Both the position numbers and the translations under genes were made by a program. A model generated the notes under the pieces. That model was given only the letters and a program-made list of their open reading frames with translations, was not told the origin of the DNA and made no database searches. Positions 15,125 to 48,057 of a stretch of 56,198 bases of DNA are shown piece after piece. This stretch comes from a virus. The stretch spans positions 1 to 56,198 of the IMG/VR virus record IMGVR_UViG_3300009103_000041; one strand, 5' to 3'. Positions within the stretch are counted from its first letter, which is position 1, and the number at the start of each line of letters is the position of its first letter.

Positions 15125-15655
15125 TTATAATATGTTGCCTGCAGATATATAAATATTTTCTCTTGTTTTATATATAGGAACACCCGCAAAGTAAGATACG
15201 GGTTCTATAGAATCTAAATTCACAATAGTTCCTTTGGTTCTTTCCAAAATATCATGATTTAGTATGTGTTGACCCGTATGAATATCTTTAACCTCTTCAT
15301 TAAGGTCAAGGGAAACGTCATAACCTAAGTCTTCCAATACTTTTAAAATATCTTCTTCAGCCATACCAGTTTCTTCTTTTAATAATAAAAGAGCAGCAGC
15401 ATAAGAAGCTATTTTAGATTTACCAAATGGTACTTTTTCAAGTATTCTTTTTATATTAAAGACTAACCTATGAAAAACAGTATAAGCTTTCTTTTGAGCA
15501 GAGCTTTGGTCTTTTACTGCTACTAACAACTTACCCTTACTATCAATCACGCCTTCGTCATAGGCCTCGGTTTTTTTCCAGGGAGTTACTAGTAGTTTAA
15601 TAAACTTATATGTTATGAATAAATCTACAGCACCTTCTTTTAAATATTCTTTCAT
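15125..15655 (-). CDS. conserved T4-like phage protein of unknown function
   Basis: 176 aa. A distinctive N-terminus (MKEYLKEGAVDLFITYKFIKLLVTPW) leads to a helical centre with a hydrophobic 'KIASYAAALLLLKEE' segment. I recall proteins of this type in T4-like phages but no function. 'YLKE' near the start fits the (I/L)xE prohead-protease pattern, so it might belong to the possible virion-protein cluster upstream. It overlaps its upstream neighbour by 4 bp and ends 21 bp before nrdA. Confidence 0.6.
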   Translation of the reverse strand: MKEYLKEGAVDLFITYKFIKLLVTPWKKTEAYDEGVIDSKGKLLVAVKDQSSAQKKAYTVFHRLVFNIKRILEKVPFGKSKIASYAAALLLLKEETGMAEEDILKVLEDLGYDVSLDLNEEVKDIHTGQHILNHDILERTKGTIVNLDSIEPVSYFAGVPIYKTRENIYISAGNIL

Positions 15656-16008
15656 ATTTTCCTTAATACATCTATAATTGTGTCATCCAATGGTATTTCA
15701 ACATAACTATCTTCCGGTAAATAATTTAAATATACCAAGAAGGTTTTAACAATACTTTGTAAAGTATCATCTGTCTTAGACATTAATATCTCAGCACACA
15801 CATCTGGTCCCAAGACATTTCCTAAAATAATAATATGGTTAAGTATTAACCGTTCTTTTAATTCATCATCACGATAGTATCTATTGATTAAGCGATTAAT
15901 ATATTTAAATCTAGATATATCCTCTTTAAAATCTTCAGTTGTCGCCCATTTATCTCTTTGGTAATGCTTCGCAGCATATAACTCGAAGTTATTTTTACTT
16001 AATTCCAT
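15652..16008 (-). CDS. conserved hypothetical helical protein
   Basis: 118 aa, almost entirely predicted helix (FKYINRLINRYYRDDELKERLILNHIIILGNVLG...). Similar proteins are found in T4-like phages as far as I recall, without known function. Coupled by 4-bp overlap to the next gene. Confidence 0.6.
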   Translation of the reverse strand: MELSKNNFELYAAKHYQRDKWATTEDFKEDISRFKYINRLINRYYRDDELKERLILNHIIILGNVLGPDVCAEILMSKTDDTLQSIVKTFLVYLNYLPEDSYVEIPLDDTIIDVLRKI

Positions 16009-16022
16009 AATATTATTTATGT

Positions 16023-16307
16023 TTATTTTTTAACGAAGTCTTTTAATTGCTTCAATAAACTTTTTTTACTCTTACGCTTATCTAGTTCAATCCCAATAGT
16101 TCTACCATACTCTTCTAAGTCATCCTTTGAGGACCTATTGGAATATGATGCAGCTTCAGATTTTTTCTTCTTTGGTTTAACACCATTAAATTTATCTTGC
16201 TCTTCTTGAGTTAAAGCAGCCGCAACCAATCTTTCTCCGGTTGGACTAACAATACCTCCAGCATCTGCTATACCATTGGATAACCAACCAACTTTTTCTA
16301 GTGGCAT
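16023..16307 (-). CDS. hypothetical protein, Lys-rich C-terminus
   Basis: 94 aa. The first third is neutral and Gly-rich (VGWLSNGIADAGGIVSPTGERL); the rest is Lys/Ser-rich and ends in a helix (KKSLLKQLKDFVKK) of SAP/HeH-like look. It may bind nucleic acid; nothing more can be said. It has GGAGAAATAT before the start. Confidence 0.5.
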   Translation of the reverse strand: MPLEKVGWLSNGIADAGGIVSPTGERLVAAALTQEEQDKFNGVKPKKKKSEAASYSNRSSKDDLEEYGRTIGIELDKRKSKKSLLKQLKDFVKK

Positions 16308-16316
16308 ATATTTCTC

Positions 16317-17138
16317 CTATGTAGTAATAATATCTGAAAGCCAGAAGTTTTTAAACCTTCCATCTCCTTTCAGTTTCACTTCAACGTGATTGCTTCCTAG
16401 TTTATTGATTGTACCTTTTTGTCCATCATTAGTTACTATGTCATCATTCACATTAAATAGTTTGCCAGCCGCATACTTCTCGCGAAGTTTTGAGACTGGA
16501 CTTAATTTTATATCTTGTCTATAAAATTTTGATTCCTTTATACCCATACCTTTTTGAACTGCTTTCATAAGTCCCTCGGCATCTTTAAATCTTTTTGGTA
16601 GACCACTAGTAAATGCAATTAAGTCATTGTCTGCAGCAGCCGCTCTCATCTTGGAGGCTGACATACCTTCAGCACCTTCAGCGTCTGGGTCTCTTTGACC
16701 AGCACTTATAACATCTATTACATCAAATTCATAAAATCCATGTCTAGCTTTTCTGCCATTAAAATCATCTAAAAGTTTAACAAATTCTTGGTGTCTATCA
16801 TCACCAACAACTAATTCAAATTCTGTATATCCATCTTTATATGCGGTAACTGCTACATCCCAAATTGTTTTAACTTTTTTATCCATAAGAATATGCCTAG
16901 CATGCACAGGGAATACCTTACGCATATATTTAATTTTGGTTTTCCATTCTAATGGATTCTTTTTAGCATCTTGTGATTGGGATGCATATACCCTATGGTC
17001 ACCAGTACCTTTTTTCATACTAACATCTAAGAGTTTTTCATGGCCAATAGTGGGAGGATTAAACCGGCCAAAGTTTACCGTGACCGTCTTTGCCTTGGCC
17101 TCTTTAATTAAATGTTCTTTAAAAGTTCTTAATGTCAT
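16317..17138 (-). CDS. nucleotidyltransferase, NMNAT/cytidylyltransferase-like, possibly packaged
   Basis: 273 aa. The HIGH-superfamily nucleotidyltransferase core has GRFNPPTIGHEKLL (residues 24-37) and MSASKMRAA (159-167, the ISSTxxR position), so it should join a nucleotide to a phosphorylated substrate, NAD-type or otherwise. A KOW-like tail (VNDDIVTNDGQKGTINKLGSNHVEVKL) is appended. The N-terminus TFKEHLIKEA resembles the T4 capsid-targeting peptide (MKTYQEFIAEA) with an IKE cleavage site. It lies in the late-type operon that begins at 21394. Confidence 0.75.
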   Translation of the reverse strand: MTLRTFKEHLIKEAKAKTVTVNFGRFNPPTIGHEKLLDVSMKKGTGDHRVYASQSQDAKKNPLEWKTKIKYMRKVFPVHARHILMDKKVKTIWDVAVTAYKDGYTEFELVVGDDRHQEFVKLLDDFNGRKARHGFYEFDVIDVISAGQRDPDAEGAEGMSASKMRAAAADNDLIAFTSGLPKRFKDAEGLMKAVQKGMGIKESKFYRQDIKLSPVSKLREKYAAGKLFNVNDDIVTNDGQKGTINKLGSNHVEVKLKGDGRFKNFWLSDIITT

Positions 17139-17470
17139 TAATCTGGGTGCTTTATTTTTGCAGCATCTTTTACTGCTAGGTCAAATAGGTCAAGTGCAGT
17201 TATCATTCTGTCATATATAGCCATATATAATCCAGAATTTCTACTCATACTTGGACCAACATCTGCATCCATTTGAAATATAAAATCTGCATGTTGTCTT
17301 AATTCAAATGCTGCTTTTTTAGTTCTTGCGACTTGCGTATACATTTGTTTTGGTGTCCAAAGGCCTTTAATAGGTCTTATCCTTTTAGCCTCATTAATAT
17401 CTGTATATGGTATGGGTCTATCACCCATTTGTTCTAATGCATGTTGGACATTTATTGGTTTTTCTTTCAT
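17138..17470 (-). CDS. hypothetical helical protein
   Basis: 110 aa, predicted mostly helical, no domain recognised. It lacks the capsid-targeting-like N-terminus of its neighbours. One-base overlap with the nucleotidyltransferase gene and 4-bp overlap with the ligase-like gene make it part of the same transcript. Confidence 0.55.
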   Translation of the reverse strand: MKEKPINVQHALEQMGDRPIPYTDINEAKRIRPIKGLWTPKQMYTQVARTKKAAFELRQHADFIFQMDADVGPSMSRNSGLYMAIYDRMITALDLFDLAVKDAAKIKHPD

Positions 17471-18696
17471 CGTGATTCGGACTCCCAGCCTTTGATTATG
17501 TTTTTACTAAAATTATTATAACTGAATTCCATTCGGTCAACAATTTTGACGGCACCGTTAGTTAAATGGTCAATAGCAACATATCCTTCGGCACCTGTTA
17601 CTTTAAACCCATCTTTAGTCTTTACAAAAGTATTTATACTATCCATGCTATCTAAATGTGTTAATAGCTTCCTCTTAGCGTACACAAGTTCATTCTGCAT
17701 GTCAAACATGGTTATTAAATTAGCTTTATTATCATCATTAAACCATTCAAGAGCGGCTATCTTTGCTGCTTCTTTCTTGGCTTTGCCAGCATCTGACTTT
17801 AATTTTTCTATTTCATTATCAAATCTATTATGAATCCATTGAATTAATTCTTCAGCGTGTTGCGACGTGTTGCTAATCTCACTTTGCGTTCTAACCTTCG
17901 TGTTTCGAAAGGTATTAATAAATAAATTAATATCTTTATTTGTAGATACGTCTTTAAGCGCGTTAGCGGAGATTTTCTGAAAGAGTTTTCCAGCATTGGA
18001 TATATGTGTGGTAATTTCATCTGTTTCCTTTTTGGTTAATGTGGCAACACCAGAAATATCTGGGAAGCTAGCAGATTTCTGCCATACACTCCTAGGTTTT
18101 TTAAATGCTGCTATAGATGGAGCGAAGCTTGCACTCATTGATGCAAAGTCAGCTCCTGAGTAATAAGTATGCCACACTACGCCAATCTTTGCCGCTTTAA
18201 TTTCTTTAGCCGCTTCAATGGGTACTGCATATACTATAGTGTTTGGGTGGAAAGTGACATATTTCTTTCCATCAATTGTCTGTGTCTTAAGGTCTTTTTT
18301 AGTAAACATAATGTCACCTTGGTAGACCCCTTGTCTTATACCAAGTTTCTTTAATTCTTGAAATGCTACTGTAAGTTTAGCTGCTAAATCACCCTTTGTA
18401 TCGGCTTTAACTTCTTTAACGCTCTTATATACCATAGGATTCTTATTGAATATTCCTTTTTTAGCAACAAAAAATTTACCATCACTTGGGTCAATACCAG
18501 CAAATACCGCAGGTGCTCCATCCCATTTAACAGTAACTTCTTTATTAGCATTAGTGGTACCAGCCAACATATCTCTTAAATCTCTTAAAGCAAATATTGC
18601 GGCACGTGCACCAGTCACACCACCATCTATAACCATATCTTCTATATGGACCATGTGTGTGTTCTTAGCTTCTACTATATGTTTTTTAAAATTCAT
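17467..18696 (-). CDS. RNA/DNA ligase-like nucleotidyltransferase, possibly packaged
   Basis: 409 aa. Motif I of covalent nucleotidyltransferases is visible as VTVKWDGAPAVF (Lys57-x-Asp-Gly). Motif IV may be EGYVAID (about 370-376) and motif V AVKIVDR (Lys about 384); the space between holds a long insert. This layout suggests a divergent ligase or end-capping enzyme that self-adenylates. The N-terminus MNFKKHIVEAKN resembles a T4 capsid-targeting peptide with cleavage after IVE. It sits between a P-loop kinase-like gene and a second nucleotidyltransferase in the same operon. Confidence 0.65.
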   Translation of the reverse strand: MNFKKHIVEAKNTHMVHIEDMVIDGGVTGARAAIFALRDLRDMLAGTTNANKEVTVKWDGAPAVFAGIDPSDGKFFVAKKGIFNKNPMVYKSVKEVKADTKGDLAAKLTVAFQELKKLGIRQGVYQGDIMFTKKDLKTQTIDGKKYVTFHPNTIVYAVPIEAAKEIKAAKIGVVWHTYYSGADFASMSASFAPSIAAFKKPRSVWQKSASFPDISGVATLTKKETDEITTHISNAGKLFQKISANALKDVSTNKDINLFINTFRNTKVRTQSEISNTSQHAEELIQWIHNRFDNEIEKLKSDAGKAKKEAAKIAALEWFNDDNKANLITMFDMQNELVYAKRKLLTHLDSMDSINTFVKTKDGFKVTGAEGYVAIDHLTNGAVKIVDRMEFSYNNFSKNIIKGWESESR

Positions 18697-20729
18697 ACTG
18701 GAAATTCCGTTATTTTATCTTCTGGAACAGTTGATGTACCTTCAATATTAAAATTGAATGCACTTGCTCCACTCTTTTTAAATGCTATCTTATGGTACTT
18801 TGCTATACCATTATCTAACTCAGCAAATATCCACATATTAATTACCCAATATGGATTTATTTTATGTGGTAATACAGCAGCCTTTAATACTTTAATTTGT
18901 TTACCATCTAACTCTGGATTTTTTTGGGTGATTTTACCAACAGTAATAACTTCATAATCGGCGGCACTTGGATTACCATACACCTTAACAACCGGCAAAT
19001 TGGTATCTCCCATAGACATAGCCTGATTTAAATCATTAATAACCTTTATACCATTTTTATTAACATCACTTATAATATCATTAATAATTTGGAAAGATAT
19101 TACATTAGCCACTAAGAAATTAATAGCACCTGGTTCTGTAATATCAAACTTTTGATTTTCTATTCTTACATCACATACATCAGTATTTTTATTTTTTGCA
19201 ACCGTGTTATAATGCTTCTTAATAACATTAGCATATTTTCTTGTAATAGCTGAGTCTTTAACAATAGCATTAAGCATTGCTCCCTGGGACATTTCATTTA
19301 ATACATCTTCTGCAATATATCCTTCACCAAGGAATTTACTTCTTTTAGTCATCCTTTCAATTTCTGTGAATGTAGACTTTTCATATCTCTTTGCTAACTT
19401 ACTTATAAATCCTTTAATCCTATTCCAATATTTAAGTACTGCAACCGCGGCTACTTTGAATTTTTTAAGAGCAGCGCCGCCAATTTGTTTCATTTTAGCA
19501 GCAGCACTTCCAAAAAATCCTTCTCGTAATAGTTGTTGATATTCAAGTTCTTCTCCAAACCAACTGGTATCAATACCAGCTCTAGCCATATTGTCTTGAG
19601 TATCTCCATCAACTGGGTATTTACCTTTAAGTAAGAATGTAATCTTACCAAGTTTAGCTTTACCCATTCCAAGTTTTAAAGATATTTGGTACCATTCAAT
19701 ACCATTACATGATAATTTACCGGTCTTTTCATCCATTATAATTGGACTATCACTCTTTAATGCCTTATATAATTCTGTTTCTGTACCATCAACAAGGACA
19801 CAGTCCGATGTGTTGTCTTTAATTGTACCCTCTATACCTTCTTTGTTTTTTAAGTTTGTATAATATGTTTTAATACCGGTCCAAATTACGTATGGTCTTT
19901 TAACATCAATTTTGTTTTTATAATAATGACTACCATTAACTAGGCTTATAACATCACTACCTAATGTTTTATCTGCATCAAGGTAGTCAACAAATTTCTG
20001 CCATTCTTTAATATAACTACGTATTTGGAAATCACCAACAATTTTTAAATCAGTTAATTGTTTTTTAAAGGTATTAGGAGTTAATGGACTTGGTATGAAT
20101 AATCCAATTGCTTGAAAGAATTCTAAAAAGTCTGTATTTGTAGCAATACCAAAATCAGATAACATCACAGATTTTTTATTTGAAACTGACCCCGTTCCCC
20201 ATATAAGTAATTCTGCTCCTCTTGCGGTATGTAAACTAGGAAATTCTTTATGTAAATCATCTAATTTATATTTCTTATTTAAAGTTGTATTAACTTTAAT
20301 CTTTCCACCTTTAGGATTAAATACTAAAGAACCTGGACCTAATTTTTTAAATAATTTATCAATATCGTCTTTCTGTTTAGAAGAATATGGTAAGGACTTA
20401 ATATCAGATTTATTTTCATATTCTAAATTATATGCTTCTGTAATACTCCAATCTTTTACTGCTTCATATCTGGTTTTTCTATTTAATACTTTAGCAAACT
20501 CTCTATGATTTAATTTAAAATGGTCGGCTGCTATGTCTCTCATTTTTTGGTCAGATACACCTCGCTTTTTCATATCTGCATTTTTCTTAAAGGAATGATA
20601 CATTGCTAATGCGCCTTTATACTTATCGGCATGAGCTATTCTATAAATTTTGCGCTTTATTTTTTTAGGAAGTAAGTCAACTAATCGCATTTGTGTTGTT
20701 TCATCTATGTGTTCTCTAAATCCTTGCAT
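18693..20729 (-). CDS. large protein of unknown function, possibly packaged
   Basis: 678 aa, no family recognised. The N-terminus MQGFREHIDETTQ resembles the T4 internal-protein targeting peptide (cleavage after IDE). A basic region follows (LLPKKIKRKIYRIAHADKYKG). The middle is beta-rich; around residues 410-455 lies an Ala/Lys amphipathic stretch (FFGSAAAKMKQIGGAALKK) that might touch membrane or DNA; the C-terminus is again beta-rich. No ATPase or transferase motif was found. Overlaps on both sides bind it to the kinase-like and ligase-like genes. Confidence 0.6.
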   Translation of the reverse strand: MQGFREHIDETTQMRLVDLLPKKIKRKIYRIAHADKYKGALAMYHSFKKNADMKKRGVSDQKMRDIAADHFKLNHREFAKVLNRKTRYEAVKDWSITEAYNLEYENKSDIKSLPYSSKQKDDIDKLFKKLGPGSLVFNPKGGKIKVNTTLNKKYKLDDLHKEFPSLHTARGAELLIWGTGSVSNKKSVMLSDFGIATNTDFLEFFQAIGLFIPSPLTPNTFKKQLTDLKIVGDFQIRSYIKEWQKFVDYLDADKTLGSDVISLVNGSHYYKNKIDVKRPYVIWTGIKTYYTNLKNKEGIEGTIKDNTSDCVLVDGTETELYKALKSDSPIIMDEKTGKLSCNGIEWYQISLKLGMGKAKLGKITFLLKGKYPVDGDTQDNMARAGIDTSWFGEELEYQQLLREGFFGSAAAKMKQIGGAALKKFKVAAVAVLKYWNRIKGFISKLAKRYEKSTFTEIERMTKRSKFLGEGYIAEDVLNEMSQGAMLNAIVKDSAITRKYANVIKKHYNTVAKNKNTDVCDVRIENQKFDITEPGAINFLVANVISFQIINDIISDVNKNGIKVINDLNQAMSMGDTNLPVVKVYGNPSAADYEVITVGKITQKNPELDGKQIKVLKAAVLPHKINPYWVINMWIFAELDNGIAKYHKIAFKKSGASAFNFNIEGTSTVPEDKITEFPV

Positions 20730-21394
20730 TAATTATCCCTCATCCATTGTTGAGCTATCTTATTCTTTGGCATAGTCTTAGACCATTTAGATATTGTACC
20801 ATATAATCTGCGTGTTTGTGCTGGTGTTTTTTCAAATACTGAATTATCTACTTCAAAAAATAATTTACCAAACATTTTTCTGTATCTATTAATATTTTTT
20901 TCAACTGATTTATGCATTGAAGTTATCATTTTAGGACCAAGACTTCTACCACCAGTTGCGCCTCTCATATCGTCGTTCTCAATAGCAGATTCTAAACTTG
21001 TTGAGACATATATCATAGCACATTCATAACCCTTTGCTTCTAATTCTTTCTTTTGAGTTGCAATTTTACCTACATTACGAGCAGTTCCATCAATAACAAG
21101 ACCTAATCTACCTATCTCGGCATGCCTTTTCTTTGATTGACTATGTTTTTTTGCAACGGCTCTTGTTACATCTCTTTGGAATTGCTGGTCAACATTTAAT
21201 ACTAAATCTAAAAAAGCATCTTTCATATAACGAGTAAATTCATTATCTGAATTAATTTCTTTATATCCAAGCTGGCCAGGCAAAGCTAGTTCTTTTGCGA
21301 CATGAGATTTACCTGCTCCAGGTGAGCCGGCCATAAATACTGCGTGGAAAATTGATGGGTCGTTCCTACCCTCAAAAACTTTAAATGACTGCAT
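20729..21394 (-). CDS. P-loop kinase-like protein (zeta-toxin/AAA_33 type), possibly packaged
   Basis: 221 aa. Walker A is MAGSPGAGKSHVAKEL (P-loop at 23-30). 'INSDNEF' and 'LVIDGTARN' occupy the positions used by polynucleotide kinase and zeta-type kinases for substrate binding and Walker B. It begins MQSFKVFEGRND, a short version of the capsid-targeting-like N-terminus shared by three genes downstream. First gene of the operon behind the TATAAATA box at 21426-21433. The substrate (nucleic-acid end, sugar or protein) is unknown. Confidence 0.7.
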   Translation of the reverse strand: MQSFKVFEGRNDPSIFHAVFMAGSPGAGKSHVAKELALPGQLGYKEINSDNEFTRYMKDAFLDLVLNVDQQFQRDVTRAVAKKHSQSKKRHAEIGRLGLVIDGTARNVGKIATQKKELEAKGYECAMIYVSTSLESAIENDDMRGATGGRSLGPKMITSMHKSVEKNINRYRKMFGKLFFEVDNSVFEKTPAQTRRLYGTISKWSKTMPKNKIAQQWMRDN

Positions 21395-21398
21395 TAAT

Positions 21399-21446
21399 AA
21401 ACCTATATAAAATTAGATATAAAGCTATTTATATCTTTATAGGTTT
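21399..21446 (-). promoter_or_regulatory. late promoter box inside a palindrome
   Basis: TATAAATA (minus strand, 21426-21433) lies 32 bp before the kinase-like gene. It is embedded in GATATAAAtagcTTTATATC (21416-21435), itself flanked by AACCTATA and TATAGGTT arms. The palindrome could act as a terminator-like hairpin for the upstream gene or as a binding site. Confidence 0.65.
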
Positions 21447-37767: not shown

Positions 37768-38281
37768 CATATATTATATCACAGTTTGGTGTAATTGTAA
37801 ACAGTTTTATTAATTTATTTTGCTCTTTTATTTCTTCCATCATTTGTATATCATCTATATACCATTCATAATTTGGGTATGTTATATTCCAGCCACCTGC
37901 TTCTTGCCACCAATTAAAACATTCATTATTATCTCTAACTACTGCAACAATTTTACTTTCTGGAAATAACTCTACAATATCATTTAAGTAATATGCAAAA
38001 TTATGAGATAGTATTACTTTAGTTTGGTCTTTAGGTCCATTAAAACTTTTGTCGATTTCATCAATCCACATTTGTCTGGTACCAAAAGTAGAGCCTAACC
38101 AATTACCATATTGCATCTTTGGTCCATAGTAATTTCCTTTATGACCAGCATATTTATGATGTTTATATATTCTGTCAGGAGTACAGTCAGTCATATCTGC
38201 ATTATGCTCTTCTCTAATTTTTTGAGAAATACCACTCCACATACTTCCTGGAGCACCTGTTACAAAAATCCAGTTTTTCAC
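37763..38281 (-). CDS. sulfotransferase-like P-loop protein
   Basis: 172 aa from a GTG that overlaps the TctC stop (GTGA). The N-terminus WIFVTGAPGSMWSGISQKI has a P-loop resembling the PAPS-binding loop of sulfotransferases, and 'SKIVAVVRDNNECFNWW' resembles the second PAPS-binding block. No acceptor can be deduced. Its last codons contain the promoter elements of hsp20. Confidence 0.5.
   Translation of the reverse strand: MKNWIFVTGAPGSMWSGISQKIREEHNADMTDCTPDRIYKHHKYAGHKGNYYGPKMQYGNWLGSTFGTRQMWIDEIDKSFNGPKDQTKVILSHNFAYYLNDIVELFPESKIVAVVRDNNECFNWWQEAGGWNITYPNYEWYIDDIQMMEEIKEQNKLIKLFTITPNCDIIYV
37773..37804 (-). promoter_or_regulatory. early-type promoter for hsp20
   Basis: TTTACA (37796-37801), 17 bp, TATAAT (37773-37778) in TGTGATATAATATATG, lying inside the end of the sulfotransferase-like gene. 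Confidence 0.7.
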
Positions 38282-39363
38282 CCTCTTAAATCAACTCCTT
38301 CAAGCGCTGTTGGTACCTCAACTTCTATTACAAAATGGTCTTTAAATATGCTTGCTAATCCTAATGCTTCTGTATTAAAACGAATTAAATTCCTAAGAGC
38401 ATCTTCAGTAATGAATGACATAAGGGTATCTCTATGTGCATTACCTTCATCACCAATCTTCCATTCATATTTACCAACTTTAGCTTCAATAGCAGCTACT
38501 GCGTCTGGGTCTAAACTCATTTGATGTAAAGCATTCCTTAAAGCAAATGTATTTGGATTTCCTTTATTTACCCATAAGGCTTTTTGCATACCATCTCTAA
38601 ATGATTTGACAAGCTTATAAGCATCATAAAATTCTCCGCTTGGTGGTGCATCCCAAAGTTCTTCAAATAAAATTTCTAATTGGAATCCAGGATAGTTAGG
38701 GTCATCAGCATGACTTCCATCTGCTTGCAATATACCATGATGGAACCATATTTCTGCTTTATCATTTGGTTCAACATGTTTTTTATATGCAGCTGGGTTT
38801 TCTCTTGTACCATTTAGTTCACCGCGTTTGAATGCAAGTCTACGTTCACCGCCTGACATTCCATTAACCCAAGTCACATGCTCTTTAAAGCATGCAATAT
38901 AATAATCTATTGATGTAGATTTATTACCACATATTAACATGGTCATAGCAAAAGCTTCGGGAACCATACCCGAACCAGCAGCAAAACTTGGATATGTCAT
39001 ATCTGCTCCAATAGCTTTACCGGCTATAATATTTAAATTCATAAGACCAATTGAGTCATAATCATTATAGTCATAGTCAACATTCTCTTGTAAGAAGCTA
39101 ACTCCATTACCACCATGACTTACCATGACAATCTTATCAGATGTTCTTAAAGAGTTATGGAATTCATTAAAGCCAGGAATATCTCTTGCTCCTGGTATAT
39201 GTTTAATGGTTATATTTTCTCCTAAGAATGGTTCAAGTTGGGTGGCTATAATTTGAGCCCATTGGCTTGTTCCAGCTCCAGGTTTTTGTGGTACAACAAA
39301 GATATAATCTGCAAATACAGATGTTGATAATGTTAAAATTAAAAGTGCTAGTAGTTTTTTCAT
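38278..39363 (-). CDS. tctC: TctC-type periplasmic solute-binding protein
   Basis: 361 aa with a Sec signal peptide (MKKLLALLILTLSTSVFA). The mature start DYIFVVPQKPGAGTSQWAQIIATQLEPFLG matches the TctC/Bug family beginning (P..PGGG.D...R), and the body shows the two-lobe pattern with 'KIVMVSHGGNGVSFL' and 'FKRGELNGTREN'. These proteins capture carboxylates for the TctA permease. Its ATG overlaps the TctA stop (ATGA), so both are made together. Slightly longer than usual (about 320 aa). The ligand cannot be read from sequence. Confidence 0.85.
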   Translation of the reverse strand: MKKLLALLILTLSTSVFADYIFVVPQKPGAGTSQWAQIIATQLEPFLGENITIKHIPGARDIPGFNEFHNSLRTSDKIVMVSHGGNGVSFLQENVDYDYNDYDSIGLMNLNIIAGKAIGADMTYPSFAAGSGMVPEAFAMTMLICGNKSTSIDYYIACFKEHVTWVNGMSGGERRLAFKRGELNGTRENPAAYKKHVEPNDKAEIWFHHGILQADGSHADDPNYPGFQLEILFEELWDAPPSGEFYDAYKLVKSFRDGMQKALWVNKGNPNTFALRNALHQMSLDPDAVAAIEAKVGKYEWKIGDEGNAHRDTLMSFITEDALRNLIRFNTEALGLASIFKDHFVIEVEVPTALEGVDLRG

Positions 39364-40781
39364 GCGTACTCCAATTTGTTTTTCTTTATAGACAATGTTG
39401 CCATTGCTATAATTGTTATAATTAAAATAATAAATATTGGCCTAGTCATAAGAGTATCTATAGTATATAAAGCACTTAATTGTAGGGTCAATGTTTCTAC
39501 TTTTATGGCTAAGATGAATGCCATCAGCAAAGCCGGTCTACTATATTTATATTGCTTGCAAAAGACTCCAAGAGCAGAGCATAATATTAATATAGCATAG
39601 TCCTCCCAACCACCAGTGTATTGAGCACAAGCCCAAGTGATAAACACCACAAGGATTGGGAAATAATATTTATATGGCCAAGAAGATATCTTTGAAATGT
39701 ATCTATTAAACACAATGCATAATATACCTACTAAAACCGTAGCCCACATAAATCCAAATGTGAGACTGTCAAAAAATCTTGTATCATAAGCAAGGTCAGG
39801 CGTTCCTAATTCAAAACCTAATACCATAAATAAAGCCATTAGTACTGCAGCAAAAGAAGCTCCAGGGATTCCAAATAAAACTGTGGGAATCATTGATGTA
39901 GCCTTTTGAGAATTATTAGCTCCTTCCGAACCTATAACACCTCTTATATTTCCTTTACCAAATTCTTCATTAGGATTGGCAGCAACGGCTGAACCATACG
40001 CCATCCAATCTCCCATAGCACCACCAAGTCCTGGAAGGAAACCAATAAAGGCTCCTATTGCTCCACCTCTTATTGAATCCCATTTATATTTCCATGCGGC
40101 TTTAATTCCTTCTAATGTTTGGCCTGATGAATTATGTTTAGTTGTTGTTGCATCTCCTTTTCTCCAACCATCTAATATTTCAGGGAAGGCAAATAGACCA
40201 GCAACCATTGGCATAATTTGAATACCAGCTCCTAGATATTCCCAACCAAATGTCCACCTATCAGCATTTGTCACTGGGTCAGTGCCTATGCTTCCTAAGA
40301 ATAATCCAATTAATATAGCAATCAAGCTTCTAATCCAGAATTTATTAGATACAAATCCAACACAGGCAAGAGCTAACATAACAAAAGCCCACATCTCTGG
40401 GACGCCAAAGACCATCATAAGTTTTGTATACCAAGGGAGTAAGGCAAATGTAAGTGTTCCCCATAGGAGACCATTGACAGTTGAGGTTGTTATTGCAGCC
40501 GTAAGAGCATAGGTTGCTTTACCTTGCTTGGCTAGAGGGTGACCGTCGACCATTGTGGCCGCGGCTGAATTAGCACCTGGGATACCTAATAAGATTCCGG
40601 AGTATGTATCACCTGTGGTAGAGGCTGCTACTACAGCCATACAGAATATAACTCCTAAGTACGGGTCTGAGAAATAAGACATAAAACCAAATAGAACTAC
40701 AAGACCCGTGGTGGCTCCAGCAGCTGGTATCAATCCAATTATAAGCCCATACAATGTGCCTAATAACAATGCTAAAATCAT
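39360..40781 (-). CDS. tctA: TctA-type tripartite tricarboxylate transporter permease
   Basis: 473 aa with about 12 hydrophobic helices and the two TctA signature repeats: GLIPAAGATTGLVV ... TTGDTYSGILLGIPGANSAAATMVDGHPLAKQGKATYAL, and 'GFLPGLGGAMGDWMAYGSAVAANPNEEFGKGNIRGVIGSEGANNSQKA...GIPGASFAAVLMALF'. It imports di/tricarboxylates with TctC. The N-terminus is about 20-30 residues shorter than common TctA. No TctB lies beside it. It follows RegA by 10 bp inside the replication operon. The signatures are intact, so the gene does not look decayed. Confidence 0.93.
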   Translation of the reverse strand: MILALLLGTLYGLIIGLIPAAGATTGLVVLFGFMSYFSDPYLGVIFCMAVVAASTTGDTYSGILLGIPGANSAAATMVDGHPLAKQGKATYALTAAITTSTVNGLLWGTLTFALLPWYTKLMMVFGVPEMWAFVMLALACVGFVSNKFWIRSLIAILIGLFLGSIGTDPVTNADRWTFGWEYLGAGIQIMPMVAGLFAFPEILDGWRKGDATTTKHNSSGQTLEGIKAAWKYKWDSIRGGAIGAFIGFLPGLGGAMGDWMAYGSAVAANPNEEFGKGNIRGVIGSEGANNSQKATSMIPTVLFGIPGASFAAVLMALFMVLGFELGTPDLAYDTRFFDSLTFGFMWATVLVGILCIVFNRYISKISSWPYKYYFPILVVFITWACAQYTGGWEDYAILILCSALGVFCKQYKYSRPALLMAFILAIKVETLTLQLSALYTIDTLMTRPIFIILIITIIAMATLSIKKNKLEYA

Positions 40782-44834: not shown

Positions 44835-45926
44835 TTAATTTAAATTTAATGCTAAAAATAATGCTTCATCTTTAATCAATTCCTTATCAATATTTCTATC
44901 ACAATTACCATTCACTCTTTTATATGGTGAATTGGCAGGACTATCTATTGCCCACCAAGTAATTCCAATGTCTGCTGGATTTAAAGTATCATAAACAACT
45001 TCAACATACTTTGCTCTATCCTCTGGGTCTGGTCCAAGTCCATCACATTTACCATGTAATCCTATTTCACTTAATACCACTGGGACATTATATTTATTTG
45101 AGTAATTAATAAGTTGGCTCATATGTGATTTAACTTCACCTAGGTATGGCATAACTTTTAATTCCTCATGTGCATAATAATGAAAGCCATAAATAATATT
45201 TGTCCTATCAATAGGAAGTAATAAATTTGCTGGATTTCCATGCCTTGCCCATAAGCCTTTATGTATTCCTTCAATTATAATTGTTCTCCCAGGGGAGACT
45301 TTTCTTATAGCATCAACAATTTCTGTTGACCACTCTTGCCATATTTCTCTTTTATTCCAAGCTCTCATTTGTTCAAACTCAGGCTCATTTAAAACATTAA
45401 AGATTAAATTATTATTGGAGATATGCTTTAAGTCTTTTGATATGATTTCCCAAAGCTTATGATATGTCTCTCTAACTTCTTTATCATTTTCAAATGCTTC
45501 ATGCCAGCGTGTTTGGTTCATACCATCTGGTGCTTTATAAAAAGTTTCATATCCAGGCTTTAAGGAAATACCAAACACAGCATCAGGATGCTCAATTAAA
45601 ATCTTTTCAATTTGTTCTCCAATAGATTTAATTTTTTTATGGACTAATAATTCATCAATGGTCTTAAAGTCTTTACTTAAAAATCTATTAAATGCAATTA
45701 TATAAACATAATGAGACCAACCATCATCAAGGACTTGGTCAACTTTTAAGATATCTTCTGAGACTGTCAATGAAGCAAAGTCAATATCACTTGTCCAATT
45801 TGCACTTGAATTTGCTCCAACTTCTGTAAGTTGGTTCATAACATTATTTGGAATATTATTATCTTCCCAAGCACCAGCGTTGGCGTAATGAGAAAATAAT
45901 AATACTAAACTAAGCAGCAACCGCAT
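44835..45926 (-). CDS. secreted glycoside hydrolase family 5 protein
   Basis: The ATG at 45926 begins a clear Sec signal peptide (MRLLLSLVLLFSHYANA); an in-frame TTG lies 15 bases earlier. Mature protein follows the GH5 barrel: LIFNVLNEPEFEQ (acid/base Glu181), YGFHYYAHEE, and VPVVLSEIGLHG (nucleophile Glu287), then ITWWAIDSPAN. It should cleave a beta-glycan outside the inner membrane. 363 aa, single domain, no carbohydrate-binding module. The target could be host surface polysaccharide. It overlaps the end of the VWA gene by 17 bp, so it is co-transcribed with the CobS/CobT-like pair. Confidence 0.85.
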   Translation of the reverse strand: MRLLLSLVLLFSHYANAGAWEDNNIPNNVMNQLTEVGANSSANWTSDIDFASLTVSEDILKVDQVLDDGWSHYVYIIAFNRFLSKDFKTIDELLVHKKIKSIGEQIEKILIEHPDAVFGISLKPGYETFYKAPDGMNQTRWHEAFENDKEVRETYHKLWEIISKDLKHISNNNLIFNVLNEPEFEQMRAWNKREIWQEWSTEIVDAIRKVSPGRTIIIEGIHKGLWARHGNPANLLLPIDRTNIIYGFHYYAHEELKVMPYLGEVKSHMSQLINYSNKYNVPVVLSEIGLHGKCDGLGPDPEDRAKYVEVVYDTLNPADIGITWWAIDSPANSPYKRVNGNCDRNIDKELIKDEALFLALNLN

Positions 45927-48057
45927 CTGTAATTTTTCCAACTAATTGCTTAGTGGTTTTCTTAGTTCTATTGAATTTTTTAAATTCACGTTTAATGTCT
46001 TTCAATTCAGTTTTTCCATCTGGTAAAACAAACTCATCATCTGTAACTTTCTTATTAATTTTTATTACAAAATAGTTGTCATAACCTTTTGCTTTTTTGA
46101 ATTCAGAAAAACCTTCTTTTCTCCATTTTTTAATCATAGTTTGAAAATCAAGATAATCATTATATGGGTCATCATCTTTAATTCCATATATTCCTTGACC
46201 AAATGAAGAAGCATCAGTCGCTAAATGGAAACCCATTATAGTAGCACCAGTTAATTCTTTAAGACGCCCTAACATATTTTTATACATTTCTCTAGAACCA
46301 TCAGCTTTAATTAATTTACCATCAAAGTTTATTGTCTTTTTTCCAGAATGAGTTTTAACATCAGCATGCTTATCCTCTTCAATATAAATTCCATCAGGAG
46401 CACCATCAGTTAAGAACATCAAATTTGTATTTTGTATTCCATGTTTTTTAACAAAAGCCTTAGTCAATCTTGAGGCTAACATACATGTTTGGACAAGTGG
46501 AGTTGAACCCATTTGGTCTATTTTTGATAATTCCCTGCTAGACATATAATATGGAATTTGTCTAGAATATGAATGAGCTTTTGAAACTGCAAACATTGTG
46601 AAAGAAGCCTCATCAAAAGTTTTGTTATTCATATATGAAGAAAACATCTCAACAATTTTAGCACCTTTAATATCCATTTCACCTTCAGCTAATGTGACCT
46701 CTGGACGAATATCATCTGAGTAGTAAGAAGTGGTTGTGAATGAATATGCCTCAAAAGGTATATTAACTTTTCTACAAAACATTGCAATAGTAATTGCTTG
46801 GGCCATAACATCTTCTATGATTTCACACATTGAACCTGAAAGGTCTAGGAACATTATAATTCCATGTGATTTAGCTTGAGCTAATTTAGTAGTTGTTAAA
46901 AAGATATCCTCAGTCATTTTATATGAATGAAGCTTTAATGGGTCAAGCTTTCCAGATTTTGCTGTAGTAGCTTTTGAATATTCAAACGCTGCTTTCTTTC
47001 TTTCAAAATCCTTAGCTAATAATTTAGCTGTTGAATTATAACCTGCTTTAGATTTATTCCAATCTTCTTTACACTTATGTGAAACATAAGCACAATATTC
47101 ATAATCTCTTTCTGTTAATTTTTCAACCATAAATTTTTCACGAGCAGCTTCAGCTTCTTTATATGTGAATAACATATTTTTAAGATTAACATCAGAAATT
47201 CCAGAAGAAAACTGTGATTGCCTATTATTATCATAACGGTCAGTTTCTTTATCTAAAAGATTTTCTTCATTTTCTCTAAAAGTATCATCAGTGAAAGTTT
47301 CATGACCAGGCTCAATAGGTGCTTTATCTTTTTCACCATCACCTTCACCATCACCTTTACCACCTTCACTTTCTTGGTCGTCATCATCATCTTCTGGAGG
47401 AGTGGTACCTTTAGGATTTTCAGTTTCAACTTCATCATCGCCGTCCATATCATTACTTGGAAAATCAGCGCCTGTACCTTCAGGCATTTCATCTTCTTCC
47501 TCTTTATTTTCTTCAACAAAGTCATAGAATTTTTTACAAACATTAACAACGTCATCCCAAGTTTCAACTTTCATAGCTTCTTCAACTAATGGAGTTTCTT
47601 CATCTGAGAATTCAACTGGAATATAACCACGACCTTTTGAATGAACATTAAGTCTGTCCATAAGACCAGCCTCATTAATGTCCCTGTCATCTGTACCAAA
47701 TAGGTTATCATTAAAAAGTTTTTTATAACCATTTTTAAAACGACGAACTATTCCAGGATATGTCTCTTGGATTTTACGTTCAATACGGATATCTTCAACG
47801 ATGTTTAAATAAGCTCTAGGAATTTTTCCAATTTTCTTTTCAGAATCATGCCACCCATCAGCTGGGGTATAAAGAGCATGACCAACCTCGTGACCAACTA
47901 GTAAGTCATAAACATCCTTACCTTTGTCTTCCCAAAGTGGTAATCTTAAAACTCTATTTAAAACATCAAAGCTAGCTGTAGAATAATTACCATGTTGAAC
48001 TGATAAATTTTCTTTTGCTAAAAGCTTTGCTAAATATTCTTGTGCTGATAAATTCAT
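45910..48057 (-). CDS. CobT/VWA-type protein with HExxH motif
   Basis: Started at the ATG at 48057, which overlaps the AAA+ gene stop (TAATG); 715 aa. An N-terminal zinc-peptidase motif VGHEVGHALYTPADGWHD (His56-Glu57...His60) is followed by a long acidic low-complexity linker (about 190-265) and a C-terminal VWA domain with MIDAS motif IIMFLDLSGSMCEII and 'LMFLTDGAPDG'. This is the architecture of the peptidase/VWA partner of phage CobS-like ATPases. Probably remodels or cleaves a protein together with its AAA+ partner; there is no sign of cobalamin genes. Confidence 0.8.
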   Translation of the reverse strand: MNLSAQEYLAKLLAKENLSVQHGNYSTASFDVLNRVLRLPLWEDKGKDVYDLLVGHEVGHALYTPADGWHDSEKKIGKIPRAYLNIVEDIRIERKIQETYPGIVRRFKNGYKKLFNDNLFGTDDRDINEAGLMDRLNVHSKGRGYIPVEFSDEETPLVEEAMKVETWDDVVNVCKKFYDFVEENKEEEDEMPEGTGADFPSNDMDGDDEVETENPKGTTPPEDDDDDQESEGGKGDGEGDGEKDKAPIEPGHETFTDDTFRENEENLLDKETDRYDNNRQSQFSSGISDVNLKNMLFTYKEAEAAREKFMVEKLTERDYEYCAYVSHKCKEDWNKSKAGYNSTAKLLAKDFERKKAAFEYSKATTAKSGKLDPLKLHSYKMTEDIFLTTTKLAQAKSHGIIMFLDLSGSMCEIIEDVMAQAITIAMFCRKVNIPFEAYSFTTTSYYSDDIRPEVTLAEGEMDIKGAKIVEMFSSYMNNKTFDEASFTMFAVSKAHSYSRQIPYYMSSRELSKIDQMGSTPLVQTCMLASRLTKAFVKKHGIQNTNLMFLTDGAPDGIYIEEDKHADVKTHSGKKTINFDGKLIKADGSREMYKNMLGRLKELTGATIMGFHLATDASSFGQGIYGIKDDDPYNDYLDFQTMIKKWRKEGFSEFKKAKGYDNYFVIKINKKVTDDEFVLPDGKTELKDIKREFKKFNRTKKTTKQLVGKITDAVAA

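Follow-up and report, generated by a model that had tools for sequence, protein, structure and literature searches.

In bacteriophage T4, the internal proteins IPI-III and the enzyme Alt carry a short N-terminal peptide that serves as a head-loading tag. In the capsid-targeting sequence (CTS) of IPIII, residues 4 and 7 serve targeting and residues 8 and 10 serve processing (PMC9026906), and Alt is an enzyme cut at both ends by the prohead protease gp21 (PMC9026906, PMC5694885). A comparable arrangement is found in a 56-kb virus fragment from IMG/VR (IMGVR_UViG_3300009103_000041, 56,198 nt; hereafter the window, meaning this whole stretch of DNA), in which four enzyme-like genes of a late operon at positions 15125-21394 begin with related peptides. 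As with IPI-III and Alt, the tag comprises ten N-terminal residues with an aromatic residue at positions 4 and 7, I or L at position 8 and E at position 10, a prohead protease is implicated, and variable cargo follows a conserved tag. The best-supported reading, in which we place high confidence, is that the products of this operon are loaded into the head of a T4-like (Kyanoviridae-like) marine phage as cargo comparable to the T4 internal proteins. Because the tags match the head-loading tags of T4 and also pick out enzymes present in purified particles of related phages, T4-like phages bearing the operon probably inject a swappable enzyme kit along with their DNA.

The four genes lie on the minus strand with the coordinates and starts given in the earlier note on this DNA and encode a P-loop kinase (20729-21394, MQSFKVFEG), a modular protein of 678 residues (18693-20729, MQGFREHIDET), a DUF6267 protein (17467-18696, MNFKKHIVEA), and an NMNAT-like protein (16317-17138, MTLRTFKEHLIKEA). 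The tag follows the consensus F-K-x-[FYH]-[IL]-x-E in the register M-x-x-F4-K-x-[FYH]7-[IL]8-x-E10, and its conserved columns are residues 4, 7, 8, and 10 of the T4 CTS, which were shown by mutagenesis to matter (PMC9026906). A tag profile was trained on IMG/VR loci L007-L112 only and calibrated on 6,146 internal methionine positions. In the window, three open reading frames (ORFs) exceeded the 0.5% level, where 0.43 would be expected, and all three belong to the operon: the DUF6267 protein (MNFKKHIVE, 18670-18696; 22.3 bits), the 678-residue protein (MQGFREHIDE, 20700-20729; 17.2 bits), and the NMNAT-like protein (MTLRTFKEHLIKE, 17100-17138; 7.3 bits). The first two fit the register, and the third carries one extra residue between H and the cut site, a spacing kept by its orthologues. 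The kinase tag (MQSFKVFE, 21371-21394) is shortened to MQSFKVF--EG, two residues fewer than the full MQSFKIFIYEG of the close relative L008, and VFE is therefore not an (I/L)xE site. Thus, of the related peptides that the earlier note had reported on four genes, three are clear tags and the fourth is complete only in relatives, and the kinase cleavage that it had proposed after VFE is open to doubt. Since the training set held near-identical contigs of the window, the independent tests of the profile are those on other phages. The N-terminal tag is real and recurs beyond chance.

Alignment of N-termini across non-redundant relatives, which had been proposed as a check, bore out this recurrence, with the tag on 44/47 DUF6267 proteins, 32/45 NMNAT proteins (42/45 by a relaxed pattern), 19/33 proteins of the 678-residue type, and 16/31 kinases. 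Among the IMG/VR relatives, one peptide type begins many non-homologous proteins of the cluster. The earlier note had regarded loss of the tag from conserved enzymes as telling against capsid targeting; within the clade, this test came out in favour of it. In phage C48C1, which is outside the training set, all six matches above 12 bits lie at 57.3-68.4 kb, in or around the cluster. Matches of the tag pattern in UvsW and the clamp loader were dropped because they arise from internal starts.

The proposal of capsid targeting is supported by independent tests on phages other than that of the window. When the profile was applied blind to the 275 ORFs of T4, the three highest scores were those of 61.1 (15.2 bits), IPII, and IPIII (10.7 bits each), with IPI at 4.8 bits. 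The gene 61.1, which lies between genes 41 and 61 (NC_000866 18966-19130; L178 1967-2131), encodes a product that aligns to T4 gp23 (E 6e-6), its E10 falling at ...FGSFLTE/AEIGG (the slash marks the cut), which is where the 65-residue propeptide of gp23 ends (PMC9026906). As no other T4 gene scores higher for the tag, and given this alignment to the gp23 cleavage region, we predict that 61.1 encodes a head protein so far unrecognised in T4.

The tag also predicts which enzymes are found in particles of the cyanophage S-CREM2. For this phage, published mass spectrometry lists 52 virion proteins (PMC10665884, Table 3), and the three best-tagged of its 219 genes, gp154 (cytidylyltransferase), gp14 (APH/ChoK-like kinase), and gp6 (S-adenosylmethionine hydrolase), are all in that list, where they are grouped as "regulatory" (PMC10665884). 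The association between tag and virion presence among genes outside the structural block gave a Fisher P of 4e-4; gp13 and gp136, which are also virion proteins, scored 4.3 and 3.9. Separately, the Cas9-annotated virion protein gp12 of S-CREM2 (L181 7704-10313) has FASFMAEAA at residues 19-27, which suggests a tag behind an extended start. In S-SM1, the T4-GC190 cytidylyltransferase, reported in virions (PMC3037559), has the best tag score of the genome, and homologous cytidylyltransferase/NMNAT-like proteins were reported in virions of S-SZBM1 (PMC9146016) and S-SCSM1 (PMC9602691). Cyanophage DUF6267 proteins begin directly at the domain and have no tag. The published virion list of S-SZBM1 includes the tagged cytidylyltransferase _140 but not the untagged DUF6267 protein _141 encoded next to it; the untagged cyanophage DUF6267 is therefore a natural exception that fits capsid targeting.

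Late expression together with head genes is suggested at the level of sequence by a conserved promoter box. The box of T4 late type upstream of the operon (TATAAATA, 21426-21433, minus strand) had been taken in the earlier note to head the operon. TATAAATA is not enriched in the window (15 observed, 16.8 expected by chance), so the box by itself was not used and its conservation was used instead: of 25 unique regions upstream of the kinase gene in relatives, 21 have ATAAATA at a distance of 35-41 nt, against a background of 0.03 per 80 nt, and a 22nd match, in Melnitz, stands at -58. In control regions, ATAAATA was found before mazG in 2/38 and before NMNAT in 0/49. A prohead protease gene of the gp21 family (Peptidase S77) was found in 6/7 related records, the seventh (G003) being a 76-kb fragment, and in five phages the major capsid protein retains [IL]xE at about residues 51-57. 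Directly upstream of gp21, a small gene with a tag-like N-terminus was noted in C48C1 (L126 14434-14631, MRTFKELREAK) and in G001 (L120 38135-38452, MLTFKESFNEVIEAK); it may encode a prohead core protein.

The enzyme assignments of the earlier note hold at the family or motif level. The kinase (221 residues) is of the Zeta-toxin/polynucleotide kinase-like type, with Walker A GSPGAGKS, an above-cut-off Pfam match to Zeta_toxin (E 5e-13), a match to AAA_33 (E 1e-8), and a PHROG match to polynucleotide kinase (E 8e-9). The 409-residue DUF6267 protein (Pfam E 7e-97) is an RNA-ligase-like nucleotidyltransferase in which, across 20 sequences, K57-x-D-G, E370-G-x-V, and K384-x-V-x-R are invariant, corresponding to ligase motifs I, IV, and V; motif I, KWDG, lies at 18517-18528. 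The proposed comparison with RNA ligase folds, made with IMG/VR sequences only, gave a divided result. RNA ligases recurred in a second look (T4 Rnl2, Z 6.8; Rnl1, Z 6.0), but helical bundles scored equally and Foldseek returned no significant match for the DUF6267 model; as Z values up to 6.8 are below the level that convinces alone, they count as evidence only in combination with the motifs. The NMNAT/cytidylyltransferase-like protein (273 residues; PHROG cytidyltransferase E 4e-63, Pfam CTP_transf_like below cut-off) has the motifs GRFNPPTIGH and SASKMR. A predicted internal protease site, GMGIKE/S (E202, 16533-16535), follows its core, GMG[IL]KE being present in most relatives among the matches listed, and the L106 protein terminates at the corresponding position. 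From family membership, the kinase and the RNA-ligase-like enzyme suggest nucleic-acid end repair, and the NMNAT suggests a supply of nicotinamide adenine dinucleotide (NAD); an action of these enzymes on nucleic-acid ends and NAD as infection begins is speculative. Two further tagged proteins were noted in relatives: a 304-residue protein with the start MITFKQYIAEQ (L107 3111-4025, plus strand) that matches an RNA polymerase ADP-ribosylase PHROG weakly (E 0.005) and is possibly Alt-like cargo, and, outside the main cluster, a RimK-like ATP-grasp protein of Melnitz (L162 82-1131; Pfam E 3e-33).

The 678-residue protein had been called an unknown, and Pfam, PHROGs, and padloc gave no family for it; tblastn found no relative in named phages, its homologues being in IMG/VR marine contigs. 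Its architecture, which is modular with multiple sites, goes beyond the first reading of the operon. The first ~89 residues (48-67% identity) are common to proteins whose remainders have no blastp similarity to that of the 678-residue protein, and they also occur as a stand-alone protein in other phages, and the C-terminal part also stands behind other N-termini (L072, L085). Among 14 aligned members of the family, E occurs in at least 12 sequences at eleven columns, and at four of these (98, 403, 469, and 479) I, L, or M stands two residues before it in every E-bearing sequence, giving [ILM]xE in 14, 14, 12, and 14 sequences, respectively. The surroundings of these four sites are weakly conserved (0.31-0.47) and lie in segments with a predicted local distance difference test score (pLDDT) below 50. 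The sites would divide the protein into an N-terminal LLPKK module (residues 11-98, 20436-20699) with the predicted end site ITE/A, a candidate PD-(D/E)xK-like effector region (residues 99-403, 19521-20435) ending at LRE/G, a basic helical linker (residues 404-479, 19293-19520) with predicted sites LGE/G and LNE/M, and a C-terminal domain delimited by alignment (residues 480-678, 18696-19292), all on the minus strand. The effector region has the invariants N306-T307-x-D309 and Q348-x-S350-L-K352, and its stretch NTSDCVLV...WYQISLKL resembles a PD-(D/E)xK core in which xK is preceded by S instead of D, E, or Q; similar D...SLK or D...E[VI]K stretches are found in several unrelated effector types. 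On these motifs, a nuclease function of the effector is speculative. Profile and fold comparisons gave weak likenesses at most, those of fold being to HinP1I (Z 3.1) and MGME1 (Z 2.5); that to HinP1I was not taken as evidence. Foldseek found no significant match for the model, and because its mean pLDDT is 64.5, no fold is claimed. A basic amphipathic helical stretch directly after an LxE site was observed in several effector types (window 19293-19520; L009, L019, L026).

Protease sites also mark module junctions in other phages. In L103, a 799-residue protein fuses NMNAT, kinase, DUF5824, and a YKRRVVK module, and its junctions retain [IL]xE at points where the corresponding modules of other phages are encoded separately with a tag, as in EEYIEE/GVDDPAIFKAIF of L103 compared with the separate tagged MLPFKSFIEE/GKNDPAIFHAIF. 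An automatic test over all matches gave 31/64 junctions with a site, against 16% expected; many of its misses came from mis-projected queries, and the count was therefore made by hand. With module families also grouped by hand, a site was found within two residues of an internal junction in 8/11 families (measured chance 6.3%, binomial P 3e-8), namely kinase, three effector types, DUF5824 (with exceptions outside this cluster), YKRRVVK, ARxKDN, and T4 61.1/gp23. The conserved [ILM]xE sites in linkers predicted to be disordered suggest that larger cargo proteins are likely also cut into domains.

Based on the T4 analogy, a mechanism for loading and delivery is proposed. A capsid-targeting N-terminus of ~10 residues would anchor the protein to the scaffold of the prohead through residues 4 and 7, and residues 8 and 10 would form the [IL]xE site for a gp21-type prohead protease. 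The cargo, consisting of the P-loop kinase, the DUF6267 RNA-ligase-like nucleotidyltransferase, the NMNAT-like enzyme, and the modular protein with its swappable C-terminal effector, would be built into the prohead; the tag would then be cut off, DNA would be packaged around the cargo, and the cargo would enter the cell with the DNA. We infer this packaging, cutting, and injection for the phage of the window; the computed results themselves are the tag, its agreement in register with the T4 residues tested by experiment, its match to proteins of other virions, the modularity, the conservation of sites, and the late box. A broader version, in which phage heads carry a polymorphic effector system composed of the tag, a small module, and interchangeable C-terminal effectors, made as a polyprotein and cut into individual domains by the prohead protease, is tentative and in our estimate falls slightly short of an even chance; modules would be fused and split at protease sites, and the D...SLK signature in several effectors suggests nucleases.

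Several observations weigh against assigning the operon to head cargo. The window, being a 56-kb fragment, lacks gp21 and gp23; its kinase tag is shortened; canonical tags are almost absent in HTVC008M; and the same-register argument takes the T4 results from the summary in a review (PMC9026906). No junction site was found in the APPGM module (RYE/EAPPGM), the L009-type effector, or the cyanophage NMNAT. In S-CREM2, gp91 (45 residues) and gp175 (55 residues) score 4.4 and 4.0 and do not appear in the virion list, and a clear tag is lacking on 9/14 virion proteins of the non-structural class; either other routes into the head exist besides the tag, or carry-over accounts for part of the detections. 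The whole-genome test in S-SZBM1 was mixed, with the top-ranked ORF, _191, missing from the virion list and the ORF of rank 2 present in it. S-SZBM1_191 itself (L180 22312-22629) is a 105-residue protein that begins MKSFKSFLSES and adjoins a virion structural gene. Carry-over from the lysate was raised for the detected enzymes by the authors of two virion studies (PMC10665884, PMC9602691), and it would be the explanation of virion detection if the genes encode ordinary late cytoplasmic enzymes of metabolism or repair, with a tag that reflects common ancestry or amphipathic starts. Cytoplasmic roles are plausible for the NMNAT and the ligase-like enzyme. However, the tag is common to non-homologous folds and rare on other genes, it predicts the enzymes of S-CREM2 virions, the profile recovers T4 internal proteins blind, and the untagged DUF6267 protein of S-SZBM1 is unlisted next to a listed tagged neighbour, which makes this explanation unlikely.

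The tagged proteins could also belong to the scaffold or core of the prohead and use the tag for assembly; if they were then broken down or lost ahead of infection, no enzyme would be delivered. In T4, gp22 and gp67 of the core serve as gp21 substrates and are mostly removed (PMC9026906), and the small gene before gp21 in C48C1 has a tag-like start. The cargo nevertheless keeps enzyme motifs (K57xDG, Walker A, GRFNPPTIGH), and NMNAT homologues are reported in mature virions (PMC3037559), and a purely structural role is thus considered very improbable. Membranes can be bound by short amphipathic N-terminal peptides, and the tag and [IL]xE sites might accordingly direct proteins elsewhere, for example to the virion exterior or the host membrane. 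This last explanation has a negligible probability in our view, since the register is that of the experimentally defined T4 head signal and T4 61.1 resembles the gp23 cleavage region.

The remaining four ORFs in 15125-21394, all on the minus strand, have no tag. They encode a 110-residue product with no significant family in Pfam or PHROG (17138-17470), a 94-residue protein with a basic C-terminal motif and weak PHROG matches (phrog_3259, E 4e-5; minor head protein inhibitor of protease, E 0.003; 16023-16307), the conserved neighbour DUF7207 (15652-16008; Pfam E 6e-37), upstream of which ATAAATA is found in 26/40 relatives, and a conserved phage protein of 176 residues (15125-15655; phrog_18642, E 6e-37). 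Elsewhere in the window, gp32 was identified by Pfam, and the T4-type genes uvsX, gp41, and nrdA were recognised by eye and position. In the Kyanoviridae phages S-SM1, Syn9, and P-SSM4, DUF6267 and cytidyltransferase homologues occupy a comparable position, after gp41/mazG and before gp61/nrdA, and related genes are likewise clustered in C48C1 and HTVC008M. Phages bearing such an operon are common: at least 593 candidate stretches with a gene for a DUF6267 relative were found in the collection of viruses that was searched. Other genes observed in the window encode a phage-borne TctA of the tripartite tricarboxylate transporter (39360-40781, minus strand; Pfam E 9e-96), an adjacent product whose start resembles that of a secreted binding protein (38278-39363), and a member of the GH5 cellulase family (44835-45941, minus strand; Pfam E 6e-24).

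Compared with the T4 internal proteins, which are small, the cargo described here comprises a conserved enzyme set from a single operon, which lies between gp41 and the gp61/nrdA region, and includes multi-domain proteins with several predicted sites; the tag also nominates T4 61.1 as an unrecognised head protein. If head loading is correct, these phages act on host nucleic acids and NAD before any gene is transcribed and exchange effectors while the delivery signal stays the same. The ejection proteins of SPN3US and phiKZ are similar in that cargo enters the host with the DNA and a prohead protease cuts at x-x-E (PMC5694885). They are unlike the present proteins in the cut motif, which is A-x-E or S-x-E, and in the cargo. 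To our knowledge, no common short tag has been described for them. Bacterial polymorphic toxins combine a conserved N-terminal delivery module with interchangeable C-terminal effector regions. The phage cargo shares with them a constant N-terminal part and swappable C-terminal effectors, whereas delivery would be by the phage head, not secretion, and no immunity gene was identified. Closest in sequence are the NMNAT-like proteins of cyanophage virions (T4-GC190), which belong to a homologous family with the same neighbourhood in S-SM1. Metabolic enzymes have been found in cyanophage particles by several groups, who left undecided whether they are cargo or contamination; in the parts available, the virion studies propose no targeting mechanism and leave carry-over open (PMC3037559, PMC9146016, PMC9602691, PMC10665884), and no paper applying a capsid-targeting sequence to these phages was found in the literature searched, coverage of which was incomplete. 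The tag explains the detection of the cyanophage cytidylyltransferase/NMNAT-like proteins in virions, and, as a short predictive signal for head targeting, it makes the question of cargo or contamination directly testable and the cargo readable from the genome sequence.

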